Positions 16,540 to 45,921 of a stretch of 64,000 nucleotides of DNA are shown here, piece by piece. This stretch comes from a bacterium (GTDB lineage: Bacteria > Pseudomonadota > Alphaproteobacteria > Rickettsiales > RI-342), in NCBI GenBank assembly GCA_016124905.1, contig WGMV01000013.1:1-64000 (forward strand). Direction: 5' to 3'. The notes under the pieces are model-generated. The model was not told the origin of the DNA, did not search any database, and worked only from the letters and a program-made list of their open reading frames with translations. Numbering within the stretch: the first letter of the stretch is position 1; each line of letters starts with the position of its first letter. The position numbers were made by a program, and so were the translations under genes.

Positions 16540-16612
16540 TGGCTCGCGATGCTCGCTATCACGCGCCAATTATGGCGCGGGGCCTCAATGGCCCAGTCGC
16601 TGCGCTCCGGTA
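16540..16612 (+). repeat. Family B multi-hairpin repeat, copy B1
   Basis: TGGCTCGC...GCTCGCT, then CGCGCC-AATTAT-GGCGCG, then GGGCC-TCAAT-GGCCC, then CAGTCGCTGCGCTCC. Five relatives in the window keep these stems with different bases. Confidence 0.75.
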
Positions 16613-16618
16613 ATTTGT

Positions 16619-17038
16619 TTAGTCATCCTGCCCGAAACGCTGGCCGAGTTCGTCCATGCGCTCGCGGTCGCGATGTTCTTCGGCGTCTTTCGCCTTCTGC
16701 TTTTCCTTTTCCATCAGGATTTCGGTTTTCTTCACCTCACCAAACTGCACGGCCATCATGTTCTGCAATTCGTTGATCTGGTTGCTGAGGCGGACGATGG
16801 CGTGGTGGTATTGCTTCTGCTCGGCCATGTTCATCTGCACGAAGACGGGGTAATCCATCTGCATCATCGGGTTTTTGGCCACCAGCATGCTTTCGCGCTC
16901 CTTGGCGCGTTCCAGCTCCAGCAGCTTGAGGCCGAACTGGTCGCGCTGCGCCTCCAGCACCTGCATGCGCGTGCGCAGCTGGTCAAGCTCCTGCTTGCGC
17001 AGCTTCAACAAGGTTTTCAGGCTTTTGGGATTGGCCAT
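16619..17038 (-). CDS. fliJ: FliJ-like flagellar export chaperone
   Basis: The 139-residue, almost entirely charged helical protein starts MANPKSLKTLLKLRKQELDQLRTRM and continues as long coiled coil (LEAQRDQFGLKLLELERAKERES, LSNQINELQNMMAVQFGEVKKTEILMEKEKQKAKDAEEHRDRE). Length and pattern fit FliJ, the soluble stalk protein of the flagellar type III export ATPase FliI. No fliI is adjacent, so the assignment rests on pattern only. Its gene is flanked by family B repeats on both sides, and the stop TAG is close to repeat B1. Confidence 0.65.
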   Translation of the reverse strand: MANPKSLKTLLKLRKQELDQLRTRMQVLEAQRDQFGLKLLELERAKERESMLVAKNPMMQMDYPVFVQMNMAEQKQYHHAIVRLSNQINELQNMMAVQFGEVKKTEILMEKEKQKAKDAEEHRDRERMDELGQRFGQDD

Positions 17039-17046
17039 TTTTCCTC

Positions 17047-17112
17047 TAACCTTCGCTGCGCGAAGGACTACGCGCCCATTGGGGCGCGGGGGCCCAACTC
17101 GCTTCGCTCATC
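17047..17112 (+). repeat. Family B multi-hairpin repeat, copy B2 (divergent)
   Basis: Stems CTTCG/CGAAG, CGCGCCC/GGGGCGCG and GGGGGCCC, then ACTCGCTTCGCT. It lies between fliJ and the M23 gene, both on minus. Confidence 0.6.
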
Positions 17113-17119
17113 CATCGAT

Positions 17120-18652
17120 CTATTCGGCCGAGGCGACTTCCTGGTGCGCGCGGCCTTTGTCCAGTGCGGTCTGCACATCTGACTTGAAGGACTTGAATTT
17201 CTTGAGGTCTTTCCCGGCCAGACGGACCTGCGGCGCGAATTTCACGTTCTGCGGGTTCACCTGCGCACCGTTGACGAGAATTTCGTAATGCAGGTGCGGG
17301 CCCGTGGACATGCCGGTGCTGCCGACATAGCCGATCAACTGCCCCTGCTTGACGCCAACGCCCGGCCGTATCTTGGCGGCGATGCGGCTGAGGTGACCAT
17401 AGGCGGTGGCGAAGCCGTTGCTGTGCGAAAGCTGAATGTAATTGCCGTAACCACCCTTGCCGCCCGCATAGGCCACCTGGCCGTCACCGGCGGCATAGAC
17501 GGGAGTGCCCGTGGGGGCGCCGAAATCCACGCCGCGGTGCATTTTGGAATAGCCCAGCAGCGGGTGCATGCGCATGCCGAAACCGGAGGTGATGCGCGCC
17601 CCGTCAATCGGCGTGCGCATCAGGCCTTTGCGGACGCTGCGGCCATCCTCATGAAAATAACCGATCTGGTTATTGCCCTGGTCGAAACGGTAGATGGTGG
17701 TATCCTTGCCGCGCTGATCCAGCCGGGCATAGACGATGGAGCCGTTTTTCACCAGTTCGCCACGCTCATTGGTGGTGCGGTCCATCACTACGGTCAGCTT
17801 ATCGCCGGGTTGGATGTCGCGCTGGAAGTCAATGTCGTAAGAGAAGGCGCCAATGAGCTCCAGCAAGGCGGCCTGCGGCACGCCGGCGCTGGTGCCGGCC
17901 TGAAGGAACGAGCTGCGAACCCTGCCCTCCAGCTTCACGTATTCACGGTTGATGTCGATATCGATGGCTTCGGCGCGGAAGCCTTTTTTGGTGTCCGGCT
18001 TGACCACCAACTCACGCGTGGGGGAAATCTCCAGGCTGAGTTCGTCCACCGGGCGGTGGCCATCTTCCTGCACGGCATTGAGCGCAATGGACATGGTGCG
18101 CCCGGCCTTCAGGTCGTATTTTTTAAAGGCGCGCGCCATGGCGGCCACCACGGCCTCCGTATCCTCTTCACGCACGTTATGCGCGGCCAGCACCACGGGG
18201 ATGTCGGCGCTTTTCTGGATCTTCACCTGGGTGCGCACCACTTCCGGCTGCGGCTTGGCAACGGGTTTGGGCACAAAATTGATGGTCGGCACGGGAGGCG
18301 GTTCGGGCGGGGCTTCAGCCACGGCGGGCAATGGCTCCAGCGGCTGCTGCACAACCGCAGGCGCCGCAGCCGGCGCGGCAGCGGGCTGCACAAAAGCCTG
18401 ATCGGTCGCATCGCCGGGAACAGGTTCGGCCTGCTTCATGGCAAGTGGCTGCGCATTCTCTCCGGCCTGGGCCTGCTCCATATCCTCAGGGGATGGGAAA
18501 ATCGGCATAAACAGGAGGGCGGCCAGCCCGGCAGCGCCAAGCCCCGTGACCATGCCCGCACCAAATACGGTGGCAGGGCCTTTCCTGCGCAGGACATACC
18601 AAGGGTATTCAAATACGCTGATTCGCTTGTGTGGGACCTTGCTGTAGTCCAT
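17120..18652 (-). CDS. M23 family metallopeptidase (peptidoglycan endopeptidase)
   Basis: The 510-residue protein has one membrane anchor at about residues 28-50 (GPATVFGAGMVTGLGAAGLAALLF), a Pro/Ala-rich periplasmic linker (60-130), an OapA/LysM-adjacent-like region and a C-terminal M23 domain with both zinc motifs intact: HRGVDFGAP (HxxxD) and HLHYEI (HxH). It is expected to cut peptide cross-links in peptidoglycan. The ATG at 18652 (MDYSKVPHKR) is preferred over a GTG at 18673; neither has a good ribosome site. The gene stands alone, followed by repeat B2. Confidence 0.9.
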   Translation of the reverse strand: MDYSKVPHKRISVFEYPWYVLRRKGPATVFGAGMVTGLGAAGLAALLFMPIFPSPEDMEQAQAGENAQPLAMKQAEPVPGDATDQAFVQPAAAPAAAPAVVQQPLEPLPAVAEAPPEPPPVPTINFVPKPVAKPQPEVVRTQVKIQKSADIPVVLAAHNVREEDTEAVVAAMARAFKKYDLKAGRTMSIALNAVQEDGHRPVDELSLEISPTRELVVKPDTKKGFRAEAIDIDINREYVKLEGRVRSSFLQAGTSAGVPQAALLELIGAFSYDIDFQRDIQPGDKLTVVMDRTTNERGELVKNGSIVYARLDQRGKDTTIYRFDQGNNQIGYFHEDGRSVRKGLMRTPIDGARITSGFGMRMHPLLGYSKMHRGVDFGAPTGTPVYAAGDGQVAYAGGKGGYGNYIQLSHSNGFATAYGHLSRIAAKIRPGVGVKQGQLIGYVGSTGMSTGPHLHYEILVNGAQVNPQNVKFAPQVRLAGKDLKKFKSFKSDVQTALDKGRAHQEVASAE

Positions 18653-18835
18653 TCCCCGTACCGCTGCTTCCACTATATGTTGTGGTTAAGACTGTCTTAA
18701 CCGCTCTTTTATGCAATAGCAAGCACTATAGATAGTATGGCGAAACAATAATTTTCCAAAGTAGCAATGACGGATTAATAGACGGTTAACAGCCCTGTCC
18801 ACATTTTTGATGGCGAAATGACATACCAGATATAG

Positions 18836-18859
18836 AAAAGCCGCGCATTTCTGCGCGGC
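18836..18859 (-). terminator. Rho-independent terminator of phaR
   Basis: On the minus strand GCCGCGCA-GAAA-TGCGCGGC is followed by TTTT. It lies 29 bases after the phaR stop. Confidence 0.85.
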
Positions 18860-18887
18860 CTCGCTTCCCTTGATTATCAAGGAGAAT

Positions 18888-19442
18888 CTATTTGTCCTTG
18901 CGGAAGCTGCCGAGGAACATGTCCATGCTGTTCTGGAACAGCTCCATGTTCTGACGAGCGACGCCCTCGAACATCTGGAACGGGTTGAAATTGGCAAAGT
19001 CCTTGAAGCCCTGCTGCATGTTGCCGGTCATCGAACCAGTCATTGGGTTGAAGCCGTGACGGGCGAACATTTCCTTCATGCGCTCCTGGTTCTGGGCGAA
19101 CATCTGCATGCTGGCCTCCAGATAGTGCGGCACAAACTGATGGACGGAGCCGTCGTACATCTTGATGAGTTCCTTCAGGAAATTGGCGGGCAGCATGCCC
19201 TGCGTACCCTTGGATTCGCGGTCGAAGATGATCTGGATCAGCACGGAATGGGTGATGTCCTCGCCAGTGCGGGCATCAAGCACCTGAAATTCGGAGCCTT
19301 CCTTCACCAGATCATACAAATCATCCAGCGTCACATAGATGCTGGTGGCCGTGTTATAGAGACGGCGGTTGGCGTATTTTTTGATGATGACGGGTTCTTC
19401 TTTTTTGCTACTTGCCTGAGAGGCCTGGCCTTGGTTCGTCAT
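18888..19442 (-). CDS. phaR: PHB synthesis repressor PhaR
   Basis: The 184-residue protein starts with the conserved PHA-accumulation regulator DNA-binding domain: IIKKYANRRLYNTATSIYVTLDDLYDLVKEG and FQVLDARTGEDITHSVLIQIIFDRESKG. The following segment (PANFLKELIKMYDGSVHQFVPHYLEASM) is the PHB/PHA accumulation domain. The C-terminus is Met/Phe/Asn-rich. PhaR binds both PHB granules and DNA and represses phasin and its own gene. GGGAG precedes the start. It is divergent from the PHA synthase genes, and a phasin gene lies at 32.4 kb. Confidence 0.95.
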   Translation of the reverse strand: MTNQGQASQASSKKEEPVIIKKYANRRLYNTATSIYVTLDDLYDLVKEGSEFQVLDARTGEDITHSVLIQIIFDRESKGTQGMLPANFLKELIKMYDGSVHQFVPHYLEASMQMFAQNQERMKEMFARHGFNPMTGSMTGNMQQGFKDFANFNPFQMFEGVARQNMELFQNSMDMFLGSFRKDK

Positions 19443-19523
19443 CGATACTACTCCCGTTCTTGTCTATTGGGTGCATTTCCCGTATACCTAGCGCATTCAG
19501 TGGTATTTAGCAAATTCGGCGAG

Positions 19524-19988
19524 ATGGAACATCCTCATTATACCAGCAGTGGAAACGAGACGCTGGAAGCGATGGCCGCCAGGCTGATTGCCCAGTGGCA
19601 GCAGCATTTCGCCACCATGCTGAACGACCCAGAAGCCGTGCAGGCCATGCTGACGCTGGCGGAGCGCATGCAGCGCTTCTATCAGTTCCCCTATCAGCCC
19701 AACCCCTTTTCCACAGGCAATGCGCATGAAACCGGGCCAACATCCCAATTTTCCGCCGGGCAATTTCCCTTCGGCGGATTTCCTTTCGGCGTTCACGCAG
19801 CAGCACCAGAGCAGCCTAAACCCGCAGCCGGCAAAACCTCCGGGGGGATGCATGACCGGCCTCAGCCTGGGGCTGATGCTGGCGATGTGGCAAAGCTTAT
19901 CGTCCAGCTCAGTGCCCAGCTTGGCCGCATTGAATCCCGCCTGGATGCGCTGGAACAACCCGCACCCCCTGCCAAACCGACCGCTTAA
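19524..19988 (+). CDS. Putative PHA synthase small subunit (PhaE/PhaR-synthase-like)
   Basis: The 154-residue protein is encoded just before phaC and overlaps it by 137 bases in another frame. The N-terminal half is helical (ETLEAMAARLIAQWQQHFATML, EAVQAMLTLAERMQRF), the middle is Phe/Gly/Pro-rich (FPFGGFPFG), and the C-terminus is a short coiled coil (DVAKLIVQLSAQLGRIESRLDALEQP) ending PAPPAKPTA. Class III and IV PHA synthases need such a small partner whose C-terminal helix binds PhaC. I infer that role from position and shape; sequence identity to PhaE is not evident. The start ATG 19524 follows GGCGAG. Confidence 0.55.
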   Translation: MEHPHYTSSGNETLEAMAARLIAQWQQHFATMLNDPEAVQAMLTLAERMQRFYQFPYQPNPFSTGNAHETGPTSQFSAGQFPFGGFPFGVHAAAPEQPKPAAGKTSGGMHDRPQPGADAGDVAKLIVQLSAQLGRIESRLDALEQPAPPAKPTA

Positions 19989-21030
19989 CCCCGCATTGGC
20001 GCACAGCGCCGCAGGCCAGGTGATACACGATATTACCGATTACCTGAAAGGCGTGGCGCTGTATCAGCAGACGCCGCCGTTGCCGCGTGAGCCTTACATG
20101 GTGTTGTGGCAGCAGGGCAGCAGCGCACTCCGCATCATCAGCCACCCGGCGCCGGGAAAGCCCGCCTTGCTGCTGGTGCCCTCCCTCATCAATCGCTGGT
20201 GGATGATGGATATTCATCCGTCGCGCAGTTTTGTGCGGCACCTGGCGGCGCAGGGTTTCGGCGTGGCGGTGATGGACTGGCAGGAGCCGGGACCGGCGGA
20301 GCGGCATTTGAGCATCGACGGGTATATCACCCAGCGCCTGCTGCCCGCGATGGCGGCATTGCACCAGACGTGGCAGCGTCCGCTTTCGCTGATCGGCTAT
20401 TGCATGGGCGGGCTGATGGCGATGGCGGCGGCGCAGCTGCCGTGCGAAGCGCCGATCGCCAGGCTGGTGCTGCTGACCACGCCGTGGGATTTCCGCACGC
20501 CGGAAAGCAACCCGCTGATGCTGGAGGAAGGAAGCATCCGCGTGCTGGAAAGCGTGATTGAGCGCGATGGCTGCCTGCCTGCTTCCATGATGCAGCCGAT
20601 TTTCTATCGCACCGATATCTGGCGTTATGCAAGGATGTTTCAGGCACTCGGCAAACAAGGCGAGAGCGAACGCGCCCACGAGAACAGCGCCGTGGCGCTG
20701 GCCGTGCAGCGCTGGCTGCACGAGGCCGTGTCGATGAGCGCCCCCGCCGCGCGGCAATGCCTGGTGCGCTGGTTTGCGGAAAACCTGCCGATGCGCGGCG
20801 AATGGCGCATCAACGGCTATGACATCACACCTCAAACCCTGCCCATGCCCGTGATGCTGGTTTGCCCGACGGAAGACAAGCTGGTGCCGCCCGCCGCCAG
20901 CAAACCGCTGGAAAGCGCCCTGCCCCATGCACAGGTTCTGCGTCCCAAGCTGGGGCATATCGGGCTGATGAGCAGCCGCATGGCGCCGCAAGAGGCATGG
21001 GCGCCTTTAGCCGATTGGCTAAAGGCTTAG
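19852..21030 (+). CDS. phaC: Poly(3-hydroxyalkanoate) synthase-like protein PhaC, short form
   Basis: The 392-residue alpha/beta hydrolase has the synthase lipase box GYCMGG with nucleophile Cys184, the Asp in CPTEDKLVPP and the His in LGHIGLMSS, the PHA synthase triad. It polymerises hydroxyacyl-CoA into PHB. The NRWWMMDIHPSRSFVRHL and DWQEPGP segments also fit PhaC. Length matches class III/IV subunits rather than the roughly 590-residue class I enzyme. I chose ATG 19852, which has GGGGGG just upstream; a reading from 19720 would add 44 Pro/Gln-rich residues. The tail forms a 10-bp hairpin (21003-21026) just before the stop. Confidence 0.85.
   Translation: MTGLSLGLMLAMWQSLSSSSVPSLAALNPAWMRWNNPHPLPNRPLNPALAHSAAGQVIHDITDYLKGVALYQQTPPLPREPYMVLWQQGSSALRIISHPAPGKPALLLVPSLINRWWMMDIHPSRSFVRHLAAQGFGVAVMDWQEPGPAERHLSIDGYITQRLLPAMAALHQTWQRPLSLIGYCMGGLMAMAAAQLPCEAPIARLVLLTTPWDFRTPESNPLMLEEGSIRVLESVIERDGCLPASMMQPIFYRTDIWRYARMFQALGKQGESERAHENSAVALAVQRWLHEAVSMSAPAARQCLVRWFAENLPMRGEWRINGYDITPQTLPMPVMLVCPTEDKLVPPAASKPLESALPHAQVLRPKLGHIGLMSSRMAPQEAWAPLADWLKA
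21003..21026 (+). terminator. Hairpin at the 3' end of phaC
   Basis: Bases 21003-21012 pair with 21017-21026 (10 bp perfect, loop GATT), ending just before the TAG at 21028-21030. TTAGTTTAATCTTT follows, then repeats A3a and A3b. Confidence 0.45.
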
Positions 21031-21039
21031 TTTAATCTT

Positions 21040-21100
21040 TGCTTCCTGCTCCGCGATGCTATGCAATGAAGCAGTTGCTGGCGCAACGCTCTCGGCAGCG
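21040..21100 (+). repeat. Family A palindromic repeat, copy A3a
   Basis: TGCTTC (21040-21045) pairs with GAAGCA (21068-21073); GTTGC-TGGC-GCAAC (21074-21087); tail GCTCTCGGCAGC. Relative to A1 both stems changed with compensation. Confidence 0.75.
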
Positions 21101-21110
21101 GCTTATGTAA

Positions 21111-21171
21111 CTTGCTCCTTGCTCGTGATGCTGCGCAATGAAGCAGTCGCCAGCGCGACGCTCTCGGCAGT
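21111..21171 (+). repeat. Family A palindromic repeat, copy A3b (tandem with A3a)
   Basis: Tandem second copy, about 70 bases after A3a: CTTGCTCCTTGCT, CGCAATGAAGCA, GTCGC-CAGC-GCGAC, then GCTCTCGGCAG. It separates phaC from phaA. Confidence 0.7.
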
Positions 21172-21267
21172 ATGGCAGGAAAGTCGCATCTCCATGGCTA
21201 TTGCCAGTTAGCCCGGCTTTCGTTAAGTTGCCCGCGCATTTCATCCCAATTCACATACGAGGGTTCC

Positions 21268-22440
21268 ATGACCGAGGTCGTCATCGTCAGCGCATTGCGT
21301 ACCGCCATCGGGGCATTTCAGGGCGGTTTCTCCAACACACCGGCACACATGCTGGGCGCGGCGGTGCTGAAGGAAACGGTGGAGCGCACCAAGGTTGCGC
21401 CCGGCGATGTGTCCGAAGTCATCCTCGGCCAGGTATTGACCTGCGCGCAGGGGCAAAACCCCGGCCGCCAGGCGGTGATCCATGCGGGCTTTCCCGAAAC
21501 GGTGCCGGGCTGGGGTTTGAACCAGGTATGCGGCTCTGGTCTTCGTGCGGTGGCGCTGGGGTATCAGGCGATTCTGGAAGGCGGCAGCTCGATTGTGATC
21601 GCGGGCGGGCAGGAAAACATGACGCTTGCCCCCTATGCCGCGCATGTGCGCGCCGGATTGCGCATGGGTGACGGCAAGCTGGTGGACACGATGGTGTTTG
21701 ACGGGCTGACCGATGCCTTCAGCCTGAAGCATATGGGCATTACGGCGGAGAATATCGCCAAGAAATTCTCCATCAGCCGCGAAGAGCAGGACGCGTTCGC
21801 CGCCGCCTCGCAACAGAAAGCGGAAGCCGCCCAGAAGGCCGGTAAGTTCAAGGATGAGATCGTTCCCTTCACGGTCAAGGGCCGCAAGGGCGACACCATC
21901 ATCGACACGGATGAACACCCCAAGCATGGCACGACGATGGAAAGCCTCGCCAGCCTTCGCGCAGCATTCGACAAGGAAGGCAGCGTGACGGCGGGCAATG
22001 CATCGGGCATCAATGACGGCGCGGCCGCCGTGATGCTGATGACAAAAGAGGAAGCGCAGAAGCGCGGGCTGGAAATCATCGCCACCATCCGCGGCTGGGC
22101 ACATGCGGGCGTGAGCCCGGACATCATGGGCACCGGTCCGATTCCCGCCACGCAGAAACTGCTGAAGCGCATCGGCTGGAGCGTGGGCGACCTGGATTTG
22201 ATCGAAGCCAATGAAGCCTTCGCCGCGCAGGCGCTTTGCGTGAGCAAGGAGCTGGGTTTTGACGCCAGCAAGGTGAACGTCAATGGCGGCGCGATTGCGT
22301 TGGGTCACCCGATTGGCGCATCCGGCTGCCGCGTGCTGGTGACGCTGTTGCATGAAATGAAAAAGCGCAGCGCCAAAAAAGGCCTGGCGACGCTGTGCAT
22401 CGGCGGCGGCATGGGCGTGGCGCTGGCAGTGGAAAGATAA
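21268..22440 (+). CDS. phaA: Acetyl-CoA acetyltransferase (beta-ketothiolase)
   Basis: The 390-residue thiolase condenses two acetyl-CoA to acetoacetyl-CoA, the first step of PHB synthesis. The active-site nucleophile Cys lies in [11 protein letters not shown] (about residue 88), the His in [14 protein letters not shown] and the second Cys in [21 protein letters not shown] near the start and [15 protein letters not shown] are typical. ATG 21268 has GAGGG upstream; two family A repeats fill the gap from phaC. A related repeat (A4) starts 3 bases after the stop. Confidence 0.95.
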
Positions 22441-22443
22441 TTT

Positions 22444-22520
22444 TTGCTCCCGGAATCGCCCTGTTTGACGATTCCATGGAGCGCGCTCAAGGCTGGACAC
22501 GACGTCCTGTCGTGCATGTT
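22444..22520 (+). repeat. Family A-related repeat, copy A4
   Basis: GCTCC (22446-22450)/GGAGC (22478-22482) encloses GGAATCG/CGATTCC (22452-22458/22469-22475). After GCTCAAGGCTG comes CACGAC/GTCGTG (22498-22503/22509-22514). Same architecture as A5 with different bases. It lies between phaA and phaB. Confidence 0.7.
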
Positions 22521-22573
22521 TTGGGTGAAACCATACAAACCAAACGAACCTGATAATTGGGAGCTTGAATCAC

Positions 22574-23302
22574 ATGGGTAAAATCGCACTGGTCACCGGT
22601 GGAACGCGCGGCATTGGGGCGGCCATTGCCGTAGCGCTGAAACAAGCCGGACATAAGGTGGCCGTGAACTATGCCACGCGCGATTCCGTCGCCCAGACCT
22701 TCACGAAAGAAACCGGCATCCCGGCCTTCAAATGGGATGTGGCCGATTACGAGGCTTGCAAGGCCGGCGTGGCGCAGGTGGCTTCCGAACTGGGCAGCAC
22801 GGTTGGCATTCTGGTGAATAACGCAGGCATCACGCGCGATGGCTTCATGCATAAAATGACCTACGAACAGTGGGACAGCGTGATTCGCACCAACCTCACT
22901 TCCTGCTTCAACATGTCGCGCGCGGTGCTTGAATCCATGAGGGAAAAAAGCTTTGGCCGTATTGTGAATATCAGCTCGGTCAACGCGCAGCTCGGTCAGT
23001 TCGGCCAGACCAACTATTCCGCCGCTAAATCGGGCATTTTCGGCTTCACCAAGGCGCTGGCGCGCGAAACGGCGGCCAAGGGCATCACGGTGAACGCGGT
23101 GGCCCCCGGTTATGTGGATACCGAGATGGTGCAGGCGGTCAGCGAAGAGGTAATCAAAACGAAAATCCTGCCGCAGATCCCGGTCGGCCGCCTCGGCAAG
23201 CCCGAGGAAATTGCCCGCACGGTGCTGTTTTTGGTGGATGAGCATGCCGGGTTCATTACGGGCGAGACCATCTCCGTCAACGGCGGCCAGCATATGGAAT
23301 AA
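22574..23302 (+). CDS. phaB: Acetoacetyl-CoA reductase
   Basis: The 242-residue short-chain dehydrogenase reduces acetoacetyl-CoA to (R)-3-hydroxybutyryl-CoA with NADPH. Nucleotide motif TGGTRGIG at residues 8-15, NNAGITRD, catalytic Ser in [13 protein letters not shown] (Tyr, Lys) and the C-terminal [15 protein letters not shown] all match PhaB. ATG 22574 is chosen over a TTG at 22565 because GGGAG (22559 region) is better spaced. The last codons and stop TAA sit inside a perfect 15-bp inverted repeat. Confidence 0.95.
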
Positions 23303-23322
23303 CGCTTGCGTTATTCCATATG
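23291..23322 (+). terminator. Perfect 15-bp hairpin spanning the phaB stop codon
   Basis: Bases 23291-23305 pair perfectly with 23308-23322 around a TT loop. The left arm encodes the last residues HME and the stop TAA (23300-23302). No U-tract follows; repeat B3 starts 6 bases later. Confidence 0.55.
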
Positions 23323-23327
23323 CCCCG

Positions 23328-23392
23328 TGGCTGCGCTCGCTTTACGCGCCAATTAGGCGCGGGCCAATGGTCCAGTTGCGCTGCGCGCTTCA
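23328..23392 (+). repeat. Family B multi-hairpin repeat, copy B3
   Basis: TGGCTGCGCTCGCTT, ACGCGCC-AATTA-GGCGCG, GGGCC-AAT-GGTCC, AGTTGCGCTGCGCGCTT. It lies between phaB and the nlpD-like gene. Confidence 0.7.
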
Positions 23393-23560: not shown

Positions 23561-24646
23561 ATGCGCGGCGCAACCATCAAGTCAGCCTTGGCTGGCATCA
23601 GTTTTCTGGCCCTTGCAGCCTGCGCGAGTCAAAACCCTGCCATGGTAGAATATAAGGGCGAGGAGTTTTTCGGTAAGGACAGGATGGAAACCGCCTATGG
23701 CTTTGCCAATCCGTCTGAAGCGCGGATAGCGCATGAGCCTGCCGTCAAGGCCGTGCCGAGTGGCTCCATCGGCGTGAAGGAACTGGAGGCACCCGCCCGT
23801 GTTTCCTCCCGTGATTTGAGTGCGCCGGCTAAGCCTGCTCCCATTGCGGCGACAGAACCGGCAAGCCTGAAACCGCTGCCACAGTTTTCCAGCGCATCTC
23901 CCGCACCCATCAGCGCGCCCACCACCCCCACGCTGACAGCCAAACCCGTTGCGCAAATCCAGACCGCCAGCGACCAGGACGGCACCCATGTGGTGCAGCA
24001 GGGCGAAACGCTTTATCGCCTTTCCAAATCCTACAATGTGCCGATGGATGCCCTTATGCAGGAAAACGGCATGAGAAGCCCGTCCGACCTGAAGCTCGGC
24101 ATGAAGCTGCGTATTCCCGGCAGCGCGCCATCGCTGCCCGTGGTCAGTACGGCTGCGGTGAAAGAGGTTTCCGCCCCGGCCGTGGCCATGGCGCCCAAAC
24201 CGGCGGTGCTGGAAACGAAAGACGCGCCCGCCAGCGCAACCCCCTTGAGCAAATCCGCTTTTGTGTGGCCGGTGCAGGGAAAGATCATCAGCCATACTGG
24301 AAGCAAGCTTTATAACGACGGCATCAACATCGCCGCGGCCGAAGGCACGCCGGTGAAAGCCGCCTCCGCCGGAACGGTGGTGCATGCGGGCAACCAGCTG
24401 GAAGGCTATGGCAACCTGGTCATCATCAAGCATGATAACGGCTGGCTCAGCGCCTATGCCCACACGCAGAACATGCTGGTGAAAAAAGGCGAAAAGGTGA
24501 ACCAGGGGCAGACCATCGCCTATGTCGGAAAAACAGGCCATGTGGACAGCCCGCAGCTGCATTTCAGCCTGCGCCAGGGCAAAGAGGTGAAAGACCCTAT
24601 TGCCGTGTTGGGCAAGCAGGATGATGTCACCGTCGCCGCTAACTGA
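23561..24646 (+). CDS. nlpD: NlpD-like LysM/LytM lipoprotein with degenerate M23 domain
   Basis: The 361-residue protein has a lipoprotein signal with lipobox LAAC (Cys 21), a long Ala/Pro-rich linker, a LysM domain at about 142-188 (HVVQQGETLYRLSKSYNVPMDALMQENG) and a C-terminal LytM domain (WPVQGKIISHTGS to the end). Zinc ligands of active M23 enzymes are missing: NDGINIAA replaces HxxxD and PQLHFSLR replaces HxH. As in NlpD and EnvC it probably activates amidases during division rather than cutting peptidoglycan. CAGGAG precedes the ATG. The stop lies inside an 11-bp hairpin followed by repeat B4. Confidence 0.85.
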   Translation: MRGATIKSALAGISFLALAACASQNPAMVEYKGEEFFGKDRMETAYGFANPSEARIAHEPAVKAVPSGSIGVKELEAPARVSSRDLSAPAKPAPIAATEPASLKPLPQFSSASPAPISAPTTPTLTAKPVAQIQTASDQDGTHVVQQGETLYRLSKSYNVPMDALMQENGMRSPSDLKLGMKLRIPGSAPSLPVVSTAAVKEVSAPAVAMAPKPAVLETKDAPASATPLSKSAFVWPVQGKIISHTGSKLYNDGINIAAAEGTPVKAASAGTVVHAGNQLEGYGNLVIIKHDNGWLSAYAHTQNMLVKKGEKVNQGQTIAYVGKTGHVDSPQLHFSLRQGKEVKDPIAVLGKQDDVTVAAN

Positions 24647-24665
24647 TGCGCTTTGCGCATCAGTT
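24641..24665 (+). terminator. Perfect hairpin spanning the nlpD stop codon
   Basis: AACTGATGCGC (24641-24651) pairs with GCGCATCAGTT (24655-24665). The stop TGA (24644-24646) is in the left arm. GTCTTTAG follows, then repeat B4. Confidence 0.55.
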
Positions 24666-24673
24666 GTCTTTAG

Positions 24674-24741
24674 TGGCTCGCTCCGCTCTCTGCACGCGCC
24701 AATAAGGCGCGGGGTGCGGTCGCACCCAGTCGCTGCGCTCC
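24674..24741 (+). repeat. Family B multi-hairpin repeat, copy B4
   Basis: TGGCTCGCTCCGCTCT, CACGCGCC-AATAA-GGCGCG, then GGGTGCG-GT-CGCACCC, a fully re-paired version of the third stem, and CAGTCGCTGCGCTCC. Confidence 0.75.
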
Positions 24742-24813
24742 AATTGGTTTTACCACTGGCACGCTTGGCAAAAGGCGCTATAACTCCTGACAGTTTTTGA
24801 ATCAGGAGTTCGC

Positions 24814-25218: not shown

Positions 25219-25224
25219 TTCCCC

Positions 25225-37848: not shown

Positions 37849-37924
37849 CTGGCTCGCGTCGCTCGCTATTACGCGCCAATTATGGCGCGGGCCCTCAATG
37901 GGCCAGTCGCGCTGCGCGCTCCGG
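37849..37924 (+). repeat. Family B multi-hairpin repeat, copy B5
   Basis: Nearly identical to B1, but GGCCC-TCAAT-GGGCC replaces GGGCC-TCAAT-GGCCC (a compensated swap), and the last hairpin is GTCGCGCTGCGCGC. Confidence 0.8.
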
Positions 37925-39112: not shown

Positions 39113-39145
39113 GATTATGGTCGTTACCGGCGGGATGTGCCGCTG

Positions 39146-39964
39146 ATGGATGCCACCCCCGCAAATAACAACGGCTCATTTTTGCAGCGATTGAACATCC
39201 TTGCCGCCATCGGTGGCCCCGTTCTGCTGTTTCTTGAAGCGGTGGGCAGGCTGGCGCTGTTTACCGGCAACGGCATTCGCCATATGCTGACGCCGCCTTT
39301 TTATGGGCGCGCACTGTTTAAGCAGATGGTGGAAATCGGCTATTACTCGCTGCCCGTAGTGGGGCTGACGGCCATCTTTACAGGCGCGGTGCTAGCGTTG
39401 CAGAGCTATTCGGGCTTTTCGCGTTTTTCCGCCGAGAGTTCCATTGCCATCGTGGTGGTGCTGTCGATCACCCGTGAGCTTGGCCCCGTGCTGGCGGGCC
39501 TGATGGTGGCTGGGCGTGTGGGCGCATCGATTGCCGCGGAGATCGGCACCATGCGCGTGACAGAGCAGATCGACGCGCTGGTGACGCTTTCGACCAACCC
39601 GTTCAAGTATCTTTTCGCTCCGCGCCTGTGGGCCGGGCTCATCATGCTGCCCGCGCTGGTGGTGGTGGCCGATATCATCGGCGTGATGGGCGGCTACGCG
39701 GTGGCGGTGCATAAGCTCGGGTTTGCGACCGGTCCCTATCTGCGCGCCACGTTTCAATATCTGGAAACGAAGGACGTGGTTTCCGGCCTGGTGAAGGCGG
39801 GCGTGTTCGGCTTCATCGTCACCTTGATGGGCTGCTATCACGGCCATCATTCCAAAGGCGGCGCGCAGGGCGTGGGCATGGCCACCACCAATGCCGTGGT
39901 GTCTGCTTCCATCCTGATCCTGCTCAGCAATTATTTCATCACCGAACTTTTCTTTGCGAAGTAA
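39146..39964 (+). CDS. mlaE: MlaE-family ABC transporter permease
   Basis: The 272-residue permease has the MlaE signature (VEIGYYSLPVVGLTAIFTGAVLALQSY, TRELGPVLAGLMVAGRVGASIAAEIGTMRVTEQIDAL) and five membrane segments. It moves phospholipid between membranes with MlaF. ATG 39146 is chosen over GTG 39137, which sits on top of the GGCGGG ribosome site. The gene ends one base before mlaF. Confidence 0.92.
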   Translation: MDATPANNNGSFLQRLNILAAIGGPVLLFLEAVGRLALFTGNGIRHMLTPPFYGRALFKQMVEIGYYSLPVVGLTAIFTGAVLALQSYSGFSRFSAESSIAIVVVLSITRELGPVLAGLMVAGRVGASIAAEIGTMRVTEQIDALVTLSTNPFKYLFAPRLWAGLIMLPALVVVADIIGVMGGYAVAVHKLGFATGPYLRATFQYLETKDVVSGLVKAGVFGFIVTLMGCYHGHHSKGGAQGVGMATTNAVVSASILILLSNYFITELFFAK

Positions 39965-39965
39965 C

Positions 39966-40829
39966 ATGCCACCACGCAAAACACCTGCCAAAACACTGGG
40001 CAAAACCATCAAGATCGTTCCCGAGAACGCCCCCGCCAGCGACGCCGTGCTGGCCAGCGCACCGGTAAAGATCGCCGTTAAGGGCGTGACCAAGGGCTTC
40101 GGCCCCAAGCATGTGCTGAACGGGGTGGACCTGGAAGTGCGCAAGGGTGAATCGCTGGTGGTGATCGGCGGGTCGGGCACGGGTAAATCGGTGTTGATCA
40201 AATGCATCCTCGGCATTTTGACGCCTGACAGCGGCAGCATCAGCATCGACGGCAAGGAAGTGACCAACCTGCGCGGCAATGCGCGCGATGCATTGATGGG
40301 CAAGTTCGGCATGCTGTTTCAGGGCGGCGCCCTGTTCGACAGTTTGAGCGTGTGGGAAAACGTGGCCTTCGTGCCGCTGCAAAAAGGCCAGCTGAGCCGC
40401 AAGCAGTGCAAGGAACTGGCGGTGGAAAAACTGGCCGCCGTAGGGCTTTCCGCCGATGTGGCCAATTTGAAACCGGCTGAGCTTTCCGGCGGCATGCAAA
40501 AGCGCGTAGCGCTGGCACGGGCCATTGCCATCAACCCCGACATCATCTTTTTCGACGAGCCGACCACGGGGCTGGACCCGATCATGTCGGACGTCATCAA
40601 CGACCTTATCATCAGCTGCACGCGCCAGAAGGGGCTGACCACCCTTTCGATCACGCATGATATGGCGAGCGCGCGCAAAATCGCGCATCGCGTGGCGATG
40701 ATCTACAAGGGCAAGATTATCTGGCACGGGCCGGTGAGCGAGCTGGATAACTGCGACAACCCCTATGTGCAGCAGTTCATCCATGGTCGTGCGGACGGCC
40801 CCATCCAGATGGATGTGAAGAAGTTTTAG
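39966..40829 (+). CDS. mlaF: MlaF-family ABC transporter ATPase
   Basis: The 287-residue ATPase has Walker A GGSGTGKSV, LFQGGALFDSLSVWENVAF (Q-loop), LSGGMQKRVALARA, IIFFDEPTTGLDPI and SITHDMASA. It has a Lys/Pro/Ala-rich N-terminal extension of about 35 residues. It energises MlaE. The expected mlaD (MCE-domain) and mlaB genes do not follow; mutY is encoded on the opposite strand and overlaps the stop by 4 bases. Confidence 0.92.
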   Translation: MPPRKTPAKTLGKTIKIVPENAPASDAVLASAPVKIAVKGVTKGFGPKHVLNGVDLEVRKGESLVVIGGSGTGKSVLIKCILGILTPDSGSISIDGKEVTNLRGNARDALMGKFGMLFQGGALFDSLSVWENVAFVPLQKGQLSRKQCKELAVEKLAAVGLSADVANLKPAELSGGMQKRVALARAIAINPDIIFFDEPTTGLDPIMSDVINDLIISCTRQKGLTTLSITHDMASARKIAHRVAMIYKGKIIWHGPVSELDNCDNPYVQQFIHGRADGPIQMDVKKF

Positions 40830-41845
40830 CGCCGTTGCGCTGTTTCAGCATTCTCAAGCAATGCAAAGAGCTTATGCTCTGCCTTTGAACTAGGCAGCCT
40901 TCTAGCGGCGGGCAAGGTTACCCATTGCGCATGGGCCGGAAGCACCTGGGCATCTCCCTTTCCAATCATGTAGGCGTCGGCCAGCAAGGTGTAATGACTG
41001 TAGACCTGTTTGATGGAGCCGAGCTTTTTCCAGGAGGGGCCGATGGGCGCCTCCGGCGGTAGATGGTGCACCCGGTAGAGGCCGCCGAGATGGGCCTCGT
41101 CACGTTTCCACATGGCGATGTTTCCGGCATCGTCCGTTATCACCAGCCAGATCATGCGGCGGGTCGGCGTGGATTTTCTGGCTTTCGGCAAGGGGTATGC
41201 GCCCGGGTTCTCCTTGCCTTTGCATTGAGATGATAACGGGCACAGGCCGCAGGCGGGCTGGCGCGGGGTGCAGATCATCGCGCCGATATCCATCATGGCC
41301 TGGTTGTAATCGTCCGGGTGCTCCGTATCGAGCAAGGCCCAGGCAGCTTGCCACCATTCCTTTACGGAAGGATCCGTCAAGGCAAAGAAGCGGGCGAGTA
41401 CGCGCCGAACATTGGCGTCCAGCACCGGCGCGGGGTGACGGTATGCAAAGGCGGCGATGGCATGGGCCGTGCTCTGGCCGATGCCGGGCAAGGCCATGAG
41501 CCCCTCCACCGTCTGCGGCATGCCCTCGATGGATTGTTGGGCGGCCATATGCAGGTGGCGGGCGCGGCGATAATAGCCGAGCCCCTCCCATGCCTTCATC
41601 ACCGCCTGCTCATCGGCCTCGGCGAGAGAACGTATGGTTGGGAAGCGTTTCATGAAGGGCGAGTAAAAACGGTCCCTGACGGTGGCGACCTGGGTTTGCT
41701 GAAGCATGGTTTCGCTAACCCAGATGGCATAAGGGTCCCTGGTGTGACGCCATGGCAGCGATTTTCGCCCATGTTGTTGATACCAAACAAGAAGCGATGT
41801 GCGCGACGGTTGAAATTCTGGTAAGCTATTGAATATGAACGGCAT
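40826..41845 (-). CDS. mutY: A/G-specific adenine glycosylase
   Basis: The 339-residue repair enzyme removes adenine paired with 8-oxoguanine. The catalytic Glu is in [13 protein letters not shown]; the helix-hairpin-helix is [16 protein letters not shown] and the Asp follows in [13 protein letters not shown]. The iron-sulfur cluster ligands are [17 protein letters not shown] (Cx6Cx2Cx5C). The C-terminal NUDIX-like domain (about 230-335) recognises 8-oxoG. It converges with mlaF. Confidence 0.95.
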
Positions 41846-41948
41846 GGTTTTTTTATGAATATTTCGTGAATAGCAATATGCTTACTTGCGACGAAAAATA
41901 AACTTTCGTAATGTGGCGCTCCTTTGCAATCAAGGGCTTTGAACCTCC

Positions 41949-44033
41949 ATGCTCCGTAGTGCCGTGAAACGTTTTCAAGAATCAGCTGCCCAACCGGCAG
42001 ATATTGAACAGGAAAGTACCGGCGCACCGCGTGGCGCCGTGCTGCCCGCAAGCACTGTTCAAACGCCGAAAATCAAAATATCCCCCCGTGTTGACGATTT
42101 GATTAATCAAATCGGTGGCAGTGGCGCGGGTTATTCCACCGTGGGTCATACCCCGCAGGCAGGCCAGCCGGTATCCGGGTTTGGTAGCAGGCCCATTTCC
42201 ATGAGCGCATCTGCACCGGTGGCAGAAAAACCTGTGGAACCAGCCCCTGCGCCGGTGATGGCCGCTCCCGCAGTAAAACATGAAAAAACCTTAACCGAAG
42301 CTCTGGCCGCGCCATTGCCCGCGCAGCCCGCACCGCTTCAGGCAGAAATACCAGCCCCGAAGGCAGAGCAAGCGCCCGCGCCCATGCCTTTTGTGCTGCC
42401 TGCCAGCAACGATATTCCCGCGCCCATTCCCTTAAAGGCGCTTGCTAAAGACGTAAAACCCGCCAAGGCCGAGAAAATCGCGGAGAAATCGACGGCTAAA
42501 GCCGAGCCGAAAATGCCGGAATTCAAAGCACCCGAGGCAAAAAACACCGAACAGAAACCCGAGCAACCACTGCCCGAGCTGAAAGCGCCCGAGCCTAAGG
42601 CATCGCCCGCGTCACCCTTTACCACCCCAGCTGCGGCCATGCCGTTGAAGAAGGACCTCCCTTTTCGCATCATCAGCAGCGCGGAAGAGACCGTGGAACC
42701 TGCCGTCGGCAGCGGCGTCAGCGTGGCGGAATCGCTTTTCAGCTTTGCCACCAAGCCGGTGGCGAAAGCGGAACCCGCCAGGCCTGAAGCGGCCGAAACT
42801 GACAATATAAAGGCCGAGGCCGTGAATGTTGCGCCTTTGGCGGTGGCTCCGACGCCCGCTGCGCCGGAACCGGCCATGGCCGATAGCGCCAACCCCAAGG
42901 CGGTGGCCGACGCTGCCGCTCCCGCGACCGTTGTTGAATATAAGGAAGAACAGACAGCCACCATTAAAGAATCACAGGCTGCGCCCGCGCAGACGGAGGC
43001 TAAACCTGTCACCGCCAAACCGGCGCGTCCCTCGCTGAAAGACCGGTTCACGGCGGTCGCCTCCGAAGACAGCGCCCCTGCTGATGCGGCCAAACCCGAG
43101 CCAGCCGCACCGGCTGCGGACCGCGCCATCAACCCGTTTACCGGCAAGCCCTCCCTGGCAGACAAGCTGGCGGATAAAATGCAGTCCAAGGCGGCGCTCA
43201 ACCCAGCGCCCATGGGCAAAATCGCCCGCCCCGCAGCGCCACGGCCGGAATATGTTCTGACCGAGCAAAAGGAAGCCCGGTTCTGGAGCAAAATTCCCCT
43301 GCCCGTGCGCTACCTGATGATCGCAGCGGCTATTTTTGCGATGTACAGCCTGTTCATGTCATGGCTGCATGAGGATGAGCCTGCGCCGGTTAGCACCGTT
43401 GCCGAAGGTTCCGCCGATACGTCGGCGCTGCCGGTGGATGAACCGGTGACGGTGGAATCCTCCCACGAGGTGAGCAATGTTACCGCGCCGGTTGCAAGCA
43501 AAGCGCCGCCTTCGGCCATTCCTTCGCTGCCCAGCATGCCCAAAAACCCGGAAAGCCATAGCTTTAACGGCCCCGTGCGCACGGCAGCCCCCGTGGCGCC
43601 GGTGCTCGCCAAGCCGGTGGAACTGATGCCGAGCATCACCGTGACACCGAAAGCCGAAGTGAGCGGCGGCAGCCTGAGCAAGGCTCCGCTGACGGCACCG
43701 GCTTCGCTTCCGCAGCCGTCGCCGATGCGCAATGCTGTGAATACCGCGATTGCTCCGGAAATGCCGGTGGGCGGAGCAATGGGTAAACAGGAGCCTGTTG
43801 CCACCGCCGCGGTTTCTGCCCCGATGCCCGCACCCGCCGCCAAACCGATGCCGGTTTCTCCTGTTGCTTCCCGTGCCGCCGCGCCGGAAACTGTACGCCC
43901 GGAAACTGTACGCCCGGAACCTGTGCGCGCAGCACCCGCCAGCAGCACACCGGCCAATACGGCCCCGACGGTCGCCAGCAAGGCGGAAACGGTGGATGAA
44001 AAACGTCTGCTGGACCTGCTTCAGCGCCCATAA
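41949..44033 (+). CDS. Large Ala/Pro/Lys-rich protein with one internal TM helix
   Basis: The 694-residue protein is mainly low complexity (APAPV, KAEPK, PELKAPEPK). One hydrophobic helix lies at about 455-473 (YLMIAAAIFAMYSLFMSW), so about 450 residues are likely cytoplasmic and the last 220 periplasmic, again Pro/Ala-rich. Near the end is a tandem 15-bp repeat (43884-43928: ETVRP, ETVRP, EPVRA). No conserved domain seen. A short conserved-looking C-terminus ends DEKRLLDLLQRP. The next gene, a TAXI receptor, starts 21 bases on, so they are likely cotranscribed. Confidence 0.65.
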   Translation: MLRSAVKRFQESAAQPADIEQESTGAPRGAVLPASTVQTPKIKISPRVDDLINQIGGSGAGYSTVGHTPQAGQPVSGFGSRPISMSASAPVAEKPVEPAPAPVMAAPAVKHEKTLTEALAAPLPAQPAPLQAEIPAPKAEQAPAPMPFVLPASNDIPAPIPLKALAKDVKPAKAEKIAEKSTAKAEPKMPEFKAPEAKNTEQKPEQPLPELKAPEPKASPASPFTTPAAAMPLKKDLPFRIISSAEETVEPAVGSGVSVAESLFSFATKPVAKAEPARPEAAETDNIKAEAVNVAPLAVAPTPAAPEPAMADSANPKAVADAAAPATVVEYKEEQTATIKESQAAPAQTEAKPVTAKPARPSLKDRFTAVASEDSAPADAAKPEPAAPAADRAINPFTGKPSLADKLADKMQSKAALNPAPMGKIARPAAPRPEYVLTEQKEARFWSKIPLPVRYLMIAAAIFAMYSLFMSWLHEDEPAPVSTVAEGSADTSALPVDEPVTVESSHEVSNVTAPVASKAPPSAIPSLPSMPKNPESHSFNGPVRTAAPVAPVLAKPVELMPSITVTPKAEVSGGSLSKAPLTAPASLPQPSPMRNAVNTAIAPEMPVGGAMGKQEPVATAAVSAPMPAPAAKPMPVSPVASRAAAPETVRPETVRPEPVRAAPASSTPANTAPTVASKAETVDEKRLLDLLQRP

Positions 44034-44053
44034 TCGACTCAGGAGTATTTCTC

Positions 44054-45079
44054 ATGCGCATGTTCATCGCCGCTTCGCTGTTGCTGTGGCCAACGCTCGC
44101 GATGGCTTCCACCGATATGGTAATGCTGACCGGGCCCGAAACGGGGACTTATGTGCGCATTGGCAAGGATGTCGCAAAAGCCGTGGCCAAGGACGGCGTG
44201 ACAGTGCAGGTGGAAAGCACCGGCGGCTCGGTGGAGAATGTGAACCGCATCGCCCATGCGGAGGATTCGACGGTGGGTATTGTGCAGTCGGACGTGCTGG
44301 GTTTCCTCAAGCGTTCCGGTACGGCGGAAACCAAGGCCACCGCCAATAAAATCCGCCTGCTTTACCCGCTATACAACGAAGAGGTTCACCTGCTGGCGCG
44401 CCGCGATATTGCCGATGTGCAAGGGCTGAACGGCAAGCGCGTGGCGGTGGGCGCGGAAGGCAGCGGCCATTGGCTGACGGCCATGAACGTGATGTCCATC
44501 CTCGGCATCAAGCCGTCGGAAATCATGCGTCTTTCCCCGCCGCAGGCCGCGGCGGCCGTGCTGGAAGGCAAGGCGGACGCGATGTTCTTTGTCGGCGGCA
44601 AGCCGGTGAAGCTGTTCAAGAACATGGAAAGCCTGAGCAAGGAACCCTCGCCTGCTTATAAACAGCTGCTCGGCCAGGTGCATTTCCTCGCGCTGGAAGA
44701 CCCCAAACTGATGCGCGAATACAAGGCATCGGTCATCAGCAGCGCGGACTATCTCTTTTCCGACACGCGTGTGCCGACCATTGCGGTGACCTCGGTGCTG
44801 ATGGTGCATGGGAGCGACGACAAGGACCTGAGCGCCAGCGAACGCCGCCAGCGCTGTGAGGATGTGCATGAACTGGGCGCGGCCATCAAAAGCTCTTTCA
44901 GTGATTTGCAAAGCAACGGGCACCCGAAATGGAACGAGGTGAACCTGAGCGCACCTATGCCGCTGTGGCAGCGTGACAAATGCGTGGACGGCAAACCTTC
45001 CATGGCCAATGCGGAAAATGCAGTCGGCAAGCTGGAGAGCGATTTGTTGAAATCGCTTGAGAAGAATAAGAAGAAATAA
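44054..45079 (+). CDS. TAXI-family TRAP transporter solute receptor
   Basis: The 341-residue protein has a signal peptide (to AMA-ST, about residue 18) and the TAXI receptor fold: LTGPETGTYVRIGKDVAKAV, VESTGGSVENVNRIAHAEDSTVGIVQSDVL, LYPLYNEEVHLLARRD, VGAEGSGHWLTAMNVMSILGI and GKADAMFFVGGKPV. Such receptors deliver an unknown solute, often glutamate-like, to DctM-type permeases; none is adjacent, so it may act otherwise. CAGGAG precedes the ATG. Last 20 residues are Lys-rich. Confidence 0.88.
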   Translation: MRMFIAASLLLWPTLAMASTDMVMLTGPETGTYVRIGKDVAKAVAKDGVTVQVESTGGSVENVNRIAHAEDSTVGIVQSDVLGFLKRSGTAETKATANKIRLLYPLYNEEVHLLARRDIADVQGLNGKRVAVGAEGSGHWLTAMNVMSILGIKPSEIMRLSPPQAAAAVLEGKADAMFFVGGKPVKLFKNMESLSKEPSPAYKQLLGQVHFLALEDPKLMREYKASVISSADYLFSDTRVPTIAVTSVLMVHGSDDKDLSASERRQRCEDVHELGAAIKSSFSDLQSNGHPKWNEVNLSAPMPLWQRDKCVDGKPSMANAENAVGKLESDLLKSLEKNKKK

Positions 45080-45109
45080 AGCCTGTCATGTTAGCGTAGC
45101 GAAGTGGCG

Positions 45110-45778
45110 CTATGCCGCCTCGGTTTCCTCTTCTTCCACCGGCTCACCATCGAGCTGAAGGACATCCCAGAGTTCCTGTGCCAGCGCCTTGACTTCCGCG
45201 GCGGCGGGGGATGAAGGCTGGGTTTCCGTCACGCAGCGGCCTTCCATGATGGAGCTGGCGAAGGCGATGCGGTTGCCGAGGCGTGTTTCGGCAAGGTTGG
45301 GTAATTGCTTGGCGATGGCGTCAACCAGCCTGGCATTGGCGGCCACGCGGTTCATCACCACCATCACGGCCTGGCTGTCGTTGGCCGCCAGATCGAGCGT
45401 CGCCTTGGTGGCCCAGAGGTCGGTCGGGCTCGGCTGTACGGGGATGATGACCAGATCGGCGCTGCGGATGGCGGTTTTGGATTCGGTTTCGGTATGGGGC
45501 GGGCTGTCGATGATGATGACATCGTGGTTGCGCTTGAGGCGGGAAATCTCGCCACCCAGGCGCCAGCCGGAAAGCTGGGTGAAGTTCATGCCCGTATAGC
45601 CTTCGCCGAAGCGTTCCTCACGCAGCTTGTGCCATTGGGTGAGGCTGCCCTGGGGGTCGATATCAATGACGGCGACGCGCAGCCCGCGCTGGCTGAGGGC
45701 CACAGCGATGTGGGCGCTGAGGGTCGTTTTTCCGGCTCCACCTTTTTGCTGGGCAATGGTAATAACCTTGTGCGACAT
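45110..45778 (-). CDS. Orphan ParA-family ATPase
   Basis: The 222-residue P-loop ATPase has the deviant Walker A KGGAGKTT (residues 12-19), the switch VIDIDPQGSLTQWHKLREE, and VIIIDSPPHTE (Walker B). The C-terminus is acidic (GEPVEEEETEAA). It has no ParB or DNA-binding partner in reach, so it probably positions a cargo (for example a chemoreceptor or secretion complex) rather than a plasmid. It is divergent from tsaC-like with repeat B6 between. A 3' neighbour converges within 31 bases. Confidence 0.88.
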   Translation of the reverse strand: MSHKVITIAQQKGGAGKTTLSAHIAVALSQRGLRVAVIDIDPQGSLTQWHKLREERFGEGYTGMNFTQLSGWRLGGEISRLKRNHDVIIIDSPPHTETESKTAIRSADLVIIPVQPSPTDLWATKATLDLAANDSQAVMVVMNRVAANARLVDAIAKQLPNLAETRLGNRIAFASSIMEGRCVTETQPSSPAAAEVKALAQELWDVLQLDGEPVEEEETEAA

Positions 45779-45813
45779 AAGCCTCTCCGTTCGTTCACCG
45801 AATTTATTTATAG

Positions 45814-45838
45814 CTACTAACTTTCGTTAGTCGCTATA
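45814..45838. repeat. Imperfect hairpin upstream of the parA-like gene
   Basis: ATAGC-T-ACTAAC-TTTC-GTTAGT-C-GCTAT forms a nearly perfect stem. It abuts repeat B6. It could be an operator or a leader structure for the minus-strand parA-like gene. Confidence 0.45.
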
Positions 45839-45846
45839 GTTGTTGC

Positions 45847-45921
45847 CTAACCTGCGCTTCGCGCAGGACTGCGCCCGCATTAGCGGGCGGGGCCTCAATG
45901 GCCCAACTCACTACGTTCGTA
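45847..45921 (+). repeat. Family B multi-hairpin repeat, copy B6 (divergent)
   Basis: CTGCGC-TTC-GCGCAG, GCCCGC-ATTA-GCGGGC, GGGCC-TCAAT-GGCCC, then ACTCACTACGTTCGT. Stems 1 and 2 changed completely relative to B1, with pairing kept. Confidence 0.7.

Follow-up and report, generated by a model that had tools for sequence, protein, structure and literature searches.

Small palindromic repeats fill the intergenic space of many bacteria and, outside the systems built on RAYT transposases, what moves them and what keeps their hairpins perfect is a question. Bacterial interspersed mosaic elements (BIMEs) are composite, modular repeats, some of which in Escherichia coli carry a site for integration host factor (IHF), and RIME, Bru-RS, RPE and WPE are palindromic interspersed repeats of alphaproteobacteria other than the one studied here. 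Repetitive extragenic palindromes (REPs) are single hairpins of 20-40 bp that carry GTAG or CGTC as an unpaired tag at one end (Di Nocera et al. 2013, PMC3733652), and the CGTC REPs are said to be without a dedicated transposase (PMC3733652). The CIR elements of Caulobacter and Brucella are, as described in PMC2229807, intergenic sequences of about 110 bp with palindromic arms and a conserved GANTC methylation site (Chen & Shapiro 2003). Here we analyse a hairpin repeat with six copies between positions 16,540 and 45,921 of a stretch of 64,000 nucleotides (the window; contig WGMV01000013.1, positions 1 to 64,000 of the forward strand) from GCA_016124905.1, the genome of an alphaproteobacterium classified under Rickettsiales, RI-342. 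We consider it probable that the copies belong to an undescribed alphaproteobacterial family of intergenic mosaic repeats, palindromic, non-coding and non-autonomous, similar in kind to REPs and BIMEs.

Copies in the window and in its genome

A covariance model built from 26 copies of the repeat (R1) gave exactly six significant matches within the window, all on the plus strand (16539-16609, 17046-17111, 23320-23388, 24673-24742, 37849-37919 and 45847-45920; E 2.7e-20 to 7.8e-10); it found no seventh copy there, the next best match having E 0.81. Direct and tandem repeat finders were also run on the window, and the tandem repeat finder recovered no member of the family. Sequence reading and R1 together place a copy of one repeat at each of the six starts proposed in an earlier note on this DNA (16540, 17047, 23328, 24674, 37849 and 45847), and the stem alternatives quoted there are found in the copies, as is the loop TCAAT in three of them (16540, 37849 and 45847). 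The statement that no copy overlaps a gene holds for genes supported by codon usage but not for mechanically called open reading frames (ORFs), which overlap copies at 16529 and 45840.

Across the whole genome of this bacterium (G000; 2.36 Mb in 47 contigs), R1 at E <= 0.1 recognised 76 units, and the flanks read for 74 of them place these at 51 sites. Single units are the commonest arrangement, while arrays of two to four units, mostly spaced by 77-82 nucleotides (nt), occur on C8, C13, C14, C18, C25, C26, C36 and C46. Because an array lies at or near the end of contigs C13, C14, C18, C36 and C46, array lengths are underestimated, and the array repeats explain the break points of some contigs in the assembly.

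Structure of the unit

Units are 70-90 nt long and hold several hairpins, two of which, hairpin 2 and hairpin 3, are universal. Hairpin 2 is typically CGCGCC-AATAA/AATTAT-GGCGCG, hairpin 3 takes the forms GGCCC-TCAAT-GGGCC, GGGCC-TCAAT-GGCCC and GGGCRC-GGTC-GYGCCC, with at least six stem variants known for the former and at least eight for the latter, and 3' of both lies a conserved arm, CCAGTCGCTnCGCTCC or AACTCGCTnCGCTCG. Several units have an extra hairpin, CCATGC-TYC-GCATGG, nested in the loop of hairpin 3. Two types are distinguished by their front, which in type 1 is a near-direct repeat, TGGCTCGC-nnn-GCTCGC, that forms no hairpin (the outer arms of type-1 copies in the window, GCTCGC-nnn-GCTCGC and (A)GTCGCTnCGCTC, pair only weakly), and in type 2 is a true hairpin such as CCTGCGC-TTC-GCGCAGG. 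The earlier description of a three-hairpin repeat is strictly right only for type 2, whereas type 1 has no real first hairpin, and the third hairpin, reported as kept in all six copies of the window, is mostly lost at 17047.

Four of the window copies are of type 1, all on the plus strand. Unit 1 (16539..16609) runs from the arm CTGGCTCGCGATGCTCGC to the arm AGTCGCTGCGCTCCG, with hairpin 2 at 16562-16579 (CGCGCC-AATTAT-GGCGCG) and hairpin 3 at 16580-16594 (GGGCC-TCAAT-GGCCC). Unit 3 (23320..23388, recognisable from about 23328) is degenerate, its hairpin 2 reading CGCGCC-AATTA-GGCGCG and its hairpin 3 GGGCC-AAT-GGTCC. The alternative core is seen in unit 4 (24673..24742; CGCGCC-AATAA-GGCGCG and GGGTGC-GGTC-GCACCC), and unit 5 (37849..37922) combines CGCGCC-AATTAT-GGCGCG with GGCCC-TCAAT-GGGCC and the 3' arm AGTCGCGCTGCGCGCTCC. 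The two type-2 copies are likewise on the plus strand: unit 2 (17046..17111), with a first hairpin CCTTCGC-TGC-GCGAAGG, hairpin 2 CGCGCCC-ATTG-GGGCGCG, a collapsed hairpin 3 and the arm AACTCGCTTCGCTC, and unit 6 (45847..45920), with CCTGCGC-TTC-GCGCAGG, CGCCCGC-ATTA-GCGGGCG, GGGCC-TCAAT-GGCCC and the arm AACTCACTACGTTCG.

Distribution among Alphaproteobacteria

The repeat extends beyond the window, both across the genome and more widely: R1, a pattern scan and a second model (R2) all find further units. The pattern scan of named genomes identified carriers in Magnetospirillum fulvum, Paramagnetospirillum kuznetsovii, P. marisnigri and Magnetospirillum sp. SS-4, as well as in Novispirillum itersonii, Rhodospirillaceae LM-1 and others, and R1 also matches Magnetospirillum and its relatives; the three carriers whose order was looked up all belong to the Rhodospirillales. 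R2, from whose building the sequences of the window's genome were left out, nevertheless matches that genome at E 4.7e-9. Across the class, 14 of 289 sampled genomes are positive with R2, which counts five copies in G314 and, for each of a further eight carriers, between 14 and at least 75. No unit was found in any of the 54 relatives sampled from the order or family of the window's bacterium. Pattern matches in Gemmatimonadetes, Streptomyces and other organisms outside the Rhodospirillales were rejected as chance or coding, the rest of the unit being missing. Rfam searches in gathering and permissive E-value modes yielded no credible match, only transfer-messenger RNA and chance matches. In the window's genome, an alpha-type transfer-messenger RNA match below the curated cut-off and the kinship of the R2 carriers at class level point to a probable alphaproteobacterial host.

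The Rhodospirillales unit has the form CCTCAAnCGCCGGGC (the box), a variable hairpin with a loop that is mostly TCC, TTGGCTTTCGCGCC-loop-GGCGCG, hairpin 3 and CCAGTCGCTnCGCTCC. The motif CTCGCTTCGCTC is a mirror repeat, reading the same backwards on one strand, rather than an inverted repeat. It is found in both arms (the 3' arm and the 5' arm of type 1) and at some positions of the variable, leading hairpin in Rhodospirillales.

Covariation of the stems

To be taken as indications, because the structure was imposed on the alignments, whose cells are not independent events, the covariation figures are as follows: among the 74 units of the window's genome 96.8% of cells are standard pairs and, over nine pairs, 67 cells are changed on both sides, against a shuffled mean of 15.6 (0 of 500 shufflings as high) and 0-3 in slid versions, and among 58 distinct Rhodospirillales units 96.0% are standard pairs, with 98 double-change cells over 11 pairs against 29.4 after shuffling. 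The stems thus do covary genome-wide and in the Rhodospirillales, the point on which the earlier note had staked its reading. One-sided changes that keep the pair (wobbles) are rare, with 14 cells in the window's genome and one in the Rhodospirillales, and in hairpins 2 and 3 of the former G-T and A-C mismatches are even (10 versus 11). That both sides of a stem mostly change together suggests that the palindromes are kept at the DNA level, and change of both arms with almost no wobble intermediates is the outcome that DNA-level processes would be expected to give.

The double changes had been described as independent and matched. Matched they are, but not all of them are independent, because the variants of hairpins 2 and 3 are linked as cassettes (ATTA with TCAAT in 23 cases, AATAA with GGTC in 21, mixed in 6). 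Members of one array can be alike except for the hairpin 2/3 core, which then differs as a block; on C14 and C46, in arrays whose arms are identical, the core changes as a whole from one member to another. TCAAT, proposed as a binding site, is one of two main hairpin-3 loops, the other being GGTC. Each goes with a particular hairpin-2 loop, so that TCAAT seems no less a subfamily marker than a putative binding site. Template switching is documented as a means of making and repairing a perfect stem in a single step (Monttinen & Loytynoja 2022, PMC8794818) and may act on this family.

Change at orthologous sites

We placed and read the unit flanks in four Paramagnetospirillum-type genomes. One orthologous site is filled in two species (L210, L213) and empty in two (L211, L212), and another is filled in L222 and L224 and absent in L223 and L225. 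A solo box (antisense CGCCTGAGGGACA / GGCGATTGAGGGACA) remains in L217 and L221 where the orthologues L214, L218 and L220 have a full unit, arrays differ in size between L226 and L227, and leading hairpins differ between orthologous filled sites. Since another, truncated box lies past the end of many units (L118, L120, L122, L147), recombination between boxes would delete the unit and leave a solo box. Taken together, presence and absence, differences in array size and solo boxes indicate that these intergenic repeats behave as mobile or amplifying elements: they occupy intergenic sites near gene ends, species differ in having the unit, lacking it or keeping a remnant, and units have multiplied locally in tandem.

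Genomic setting

Genes of the window's genome were called with a simple codon-usage gene caller written for this analysis, and by that caller nearly all of its units are intergenic. Its type-1 sites usually lie 0-30 nt past the stop of the upstream gene and 19 of 24 are co-directional with it, while type-2 units show 14 in one orientation and 11 in the other. In the Rhodospirillales there is no overall orientation bias (20 versus 22), and the box lies at a median of 12.5 nt past a co-directional stop. Within the window, unit 5 starts 15 nt past the stop of its upstream gene, unit 2 is placed in the gap separating two minus-strand genes, and unit 6, together with a hairpin before it (45809..45838), lies between two divergent genes.

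This setting bears on the alternative that the units are a structured RNA element, transcribed at gene ends and selected as RNA, with the hairpins serving as 3'-end stabilisers or bidirectional terminators. Nearness to stop codons is what such an element would show, as are the co-directional type-1 sites, the strong covariation with conserved loops and the T-rich linkers found 3' of the leading hairpin. The same alternative fits poorly with the even orientation of Rhodospirillales and type-2 units, the near absence of wobble intermediates, presence and absence at orthologous genes, the lack of an Rfam match, and leading hairpins at six of nine divergent sites of the window's genome, where a terminator is not needed; we regard it as rather unlikely.

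Where the upstream gene of a Rhodospirillales unit points the opposite way, the box lies 7-8 nt from its start codon at eight of 22 sites, so that the antisense box, GAGGGAC, is placed like a Shine-Dalgarno sequence and might, judging from sequence, work as a ribosome-binding site. Box ends with a Shine-Dalgarno-like GAGG 7-8 nt from starts are seen in L156, L157, L148, L217 and similar loci, and the solo remnant in L217 keeps its GAGG.

In L168, inverted units at 847-929 (minus) and 1501-1583 (plus) flank a gene, with an antitoxin-like ORF nearby. The flanked gene was considered as a transposase and rejected, being by eye a GNAT-like acetyltransferase, and the inverted pair is probably due to chance and not an autonomous element.

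The leading hairpin

At 24 of 50 sites in the window's genome a long, site-unique hairpin ends at most 14 nt before the first unit, as compared with 12 of 3000 random windows; this hairpin, upstream of half of the sites, was absent from the earlier description. An upstream gene that points away has it as often (9 of 16) as a co-directional one (15 of 33). Between this hairpin and the unit lies a T-rich linker, CTTTTG or a variant, which also joins the members of arrays. In the window such hairpins, all on the plus strand, precede unit 1 (16504..16525, then the linker TAGTTGACTTTTG), unit 4 (24641..24665; AACTGATGCGC-TTT-GCGCATCAGTT, then GTCTTTAG) and unit 6 (45809..45838; TATAGC(T)ACTAAC-TTTC-GTTAGT(C)GCTATA), and another touches unit 3 (23290..23323; GCATATGGAATAACGC-TT-GCGTTATTCCATATGC).

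One way to account for this arrangement is that units insert selectively beside pre-existing terminator-like hairpins, the leading hairpin being host DNA. Consistent with this, the arrays of the window's genome have a leading hairpin at the first member only, its sequence is unique to each site, and the layout recurs in a second repeat family of the window. In Rhodospirillales units, on the other hand, the variable hairpin sits within the unit, flanked by the box and TTGGC, and every member of an array has it, with 18 distinct perfect stems among 34 units, and six of nine divergent sites in the window's genome have the hairpin as well. Insertion beside host hairpins is compatible with our preferred explanation and possible, if on balance unlikely. 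Some Rhodospirillales units instead have the near-direct repeat GCTCGC-nTCC-GCTCGC, as in the window's genome.

The second repeat family just mentioned has the form TTCCTGCTC...CAATGAAGCAGTYGC....GCGRACGCTCTCGGCAG and occurs at 2053-2110, 21043-21100 and 21115-21175, in tandem at 21043/21115 with a period of 72. Each of its sites follows a long hairpin of its own (2002-2038, 21003-21026) and a CTTTG linker.

Search for a mobilising enzyme

Units of similar habitat, copy number and hairpin content are mobilised by RAYT/Y1 transposases in the GTAG-tagged REP/REPIN systems, and the window's genome has one weak Y1_Tnp gene (C25:70762). However, Y1_Tnp (PF01797) is absent from eight of 15 carriers, and genomes with 73 copies or more are among those without it; the Y1 gene of the window's genome (L031) has no unit within about 1.5 kb; a GTAG or CGTC tag adjoins a hairpin in no more than 11 cases among the 74 units of that genome and in 0 of 58 Rhodospirillales units; and the unit, at 70-90 nt, holds several hairpins. 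Mobilisation by a RAYT is accordingly very improbable. Reverse transcriptase (RVT_1, PF00078) is absent from the window's genome and from eight other carriers, and both enzymes were rejected as drivers, their genes being absent from many carriers. No gene was seen consistently beside the units. From these gaps the agent would lie elsewhere, the candidates being an agent other than RAYT or reverse transcriptase, or a general process of recombination or replication.

Beside the only Y1/RAYT-like gene of the window's genome (L031, G000:C25, ORF 1282-1779, minus strand) a CGTC-type REP, CCGTCATTCCAGCGAAAGCTGGAATCCA, adjoins at 1201.

Interpretation

Our preferred explanation is that of a mosaic repeat propagated as DNA. 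On this view each unit strings together small perfect hairpins whose loops are conserved and whose stems are interchangeable, and runs from a leading hairpin (different at almost every site) through a linker, hairpin 2 and hairpin 3 to the conserved arm CCAGTCGCTnCGCTCC. Units would spread as DNA, probably via hairpins in single-stranded DNA and with an enzyme acting in trans; the short repeats that end each unit would recombine unequally, enlarging arrays or deleting units to a solo box; and the two arms of a stem would be rewritten together, by cassette exchange or template switching, so that the stem stays perfect. Established units would probably be transcribed within 3' or 5' untranslated RNA, where co-option, for instance as a ribosome-binding site, is conceivable.

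Several points weigh against this explanation. The co-directionality of type-1 sites is as expected of an RNA element, and the excess of G-T over A-C mismatches in the Rhodospirillales (17 versus 5) leaves room for selection at the RNA level. The double-change counts are, as stated, not made up of independent events, vertical inheritance with frequent loss could also give sites that are present in some species and absent in others, neither an insertion event bearing a clean target-site duplication nor an enzyme could be identified, the RAYT and RVT_1 genes being absent from many carriers.

More tentatively, and in our view doubtfully, the family may represent an undescribed, class-wide superfamily of hairpin chains whose leading hairpin is replaced entirely from site to site, with 18 or more distinct perfect stems on a near-constant loop, which spreads through single-stranded DNA without RAYT or reverse transcriptase and whose stems are renewed by template switching. 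If so, the superfamily would be a natural record of perfect DNA palindromes arising and being replaced. The family offers a clean comparative system, with cultured hosts of the Magnetospirillum type, dozens of copies per genome, empty sites, solo remnants, arrays of varied length and two-sided stem changes almost without intermediates, and it includes candidate cases of a mobile repeat supplying the ribosome-binding site of a gene.

Comparison with known repeat systems

Like the GTAG and CGTC REPs, the units are short palindromic intergenic repeats of high copy number near gene ends, with heterogeneous stems and set loops, some clustering and a patchy distribution among species, and the CGTC REPs are also without a known dedicated transposase. 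In habitat the 76 units, nearly all intergenic, resemble REPs; they differ in that no cognate Y1 gene flanked by the repeats is found, and in that REPs often form head-to-head or tail-to-tail pairs, whereas these units are hairpin chains in head-to-tail arrays with no conserved tag. The modularity of BIMEs is seen in the type 1 and type 2 arms, the exchangeable cores of hairpins 2 and 3, the nested CCATGC-TCC-GCATGG hairpins and the arrays. Unlike some E. coli BIMEs, the units lack the IHF consensus WATCAANNNNTTR (0 of 74 in the window's genome and 0 of 58 in the Rhodospirillales, 0 of 132 in all), so that the binding of IHF suggested in the earlier note finds no support. With CIR elements they share an intergenic alphaproteobacterial setting and palindromic arms, but CIR has two long arms and a conserved GANTC, which occurs in one of the 74 units and in 0 of the 58. 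RIME, Bru-RS, RPE and WPE are of the same general kind, as judged by general anatomy. In the open-access literature, to which the search was confined, we found no paper that prints the sequence or describes such repeats in Magnetospirillum. In habitat and behaviour the family is of the REP, BIME and CIR kind, but it does not share the tags of GTAG and CGTC REPs, the conserved GANTC of CIRs or the IHF site of some BIMEs.

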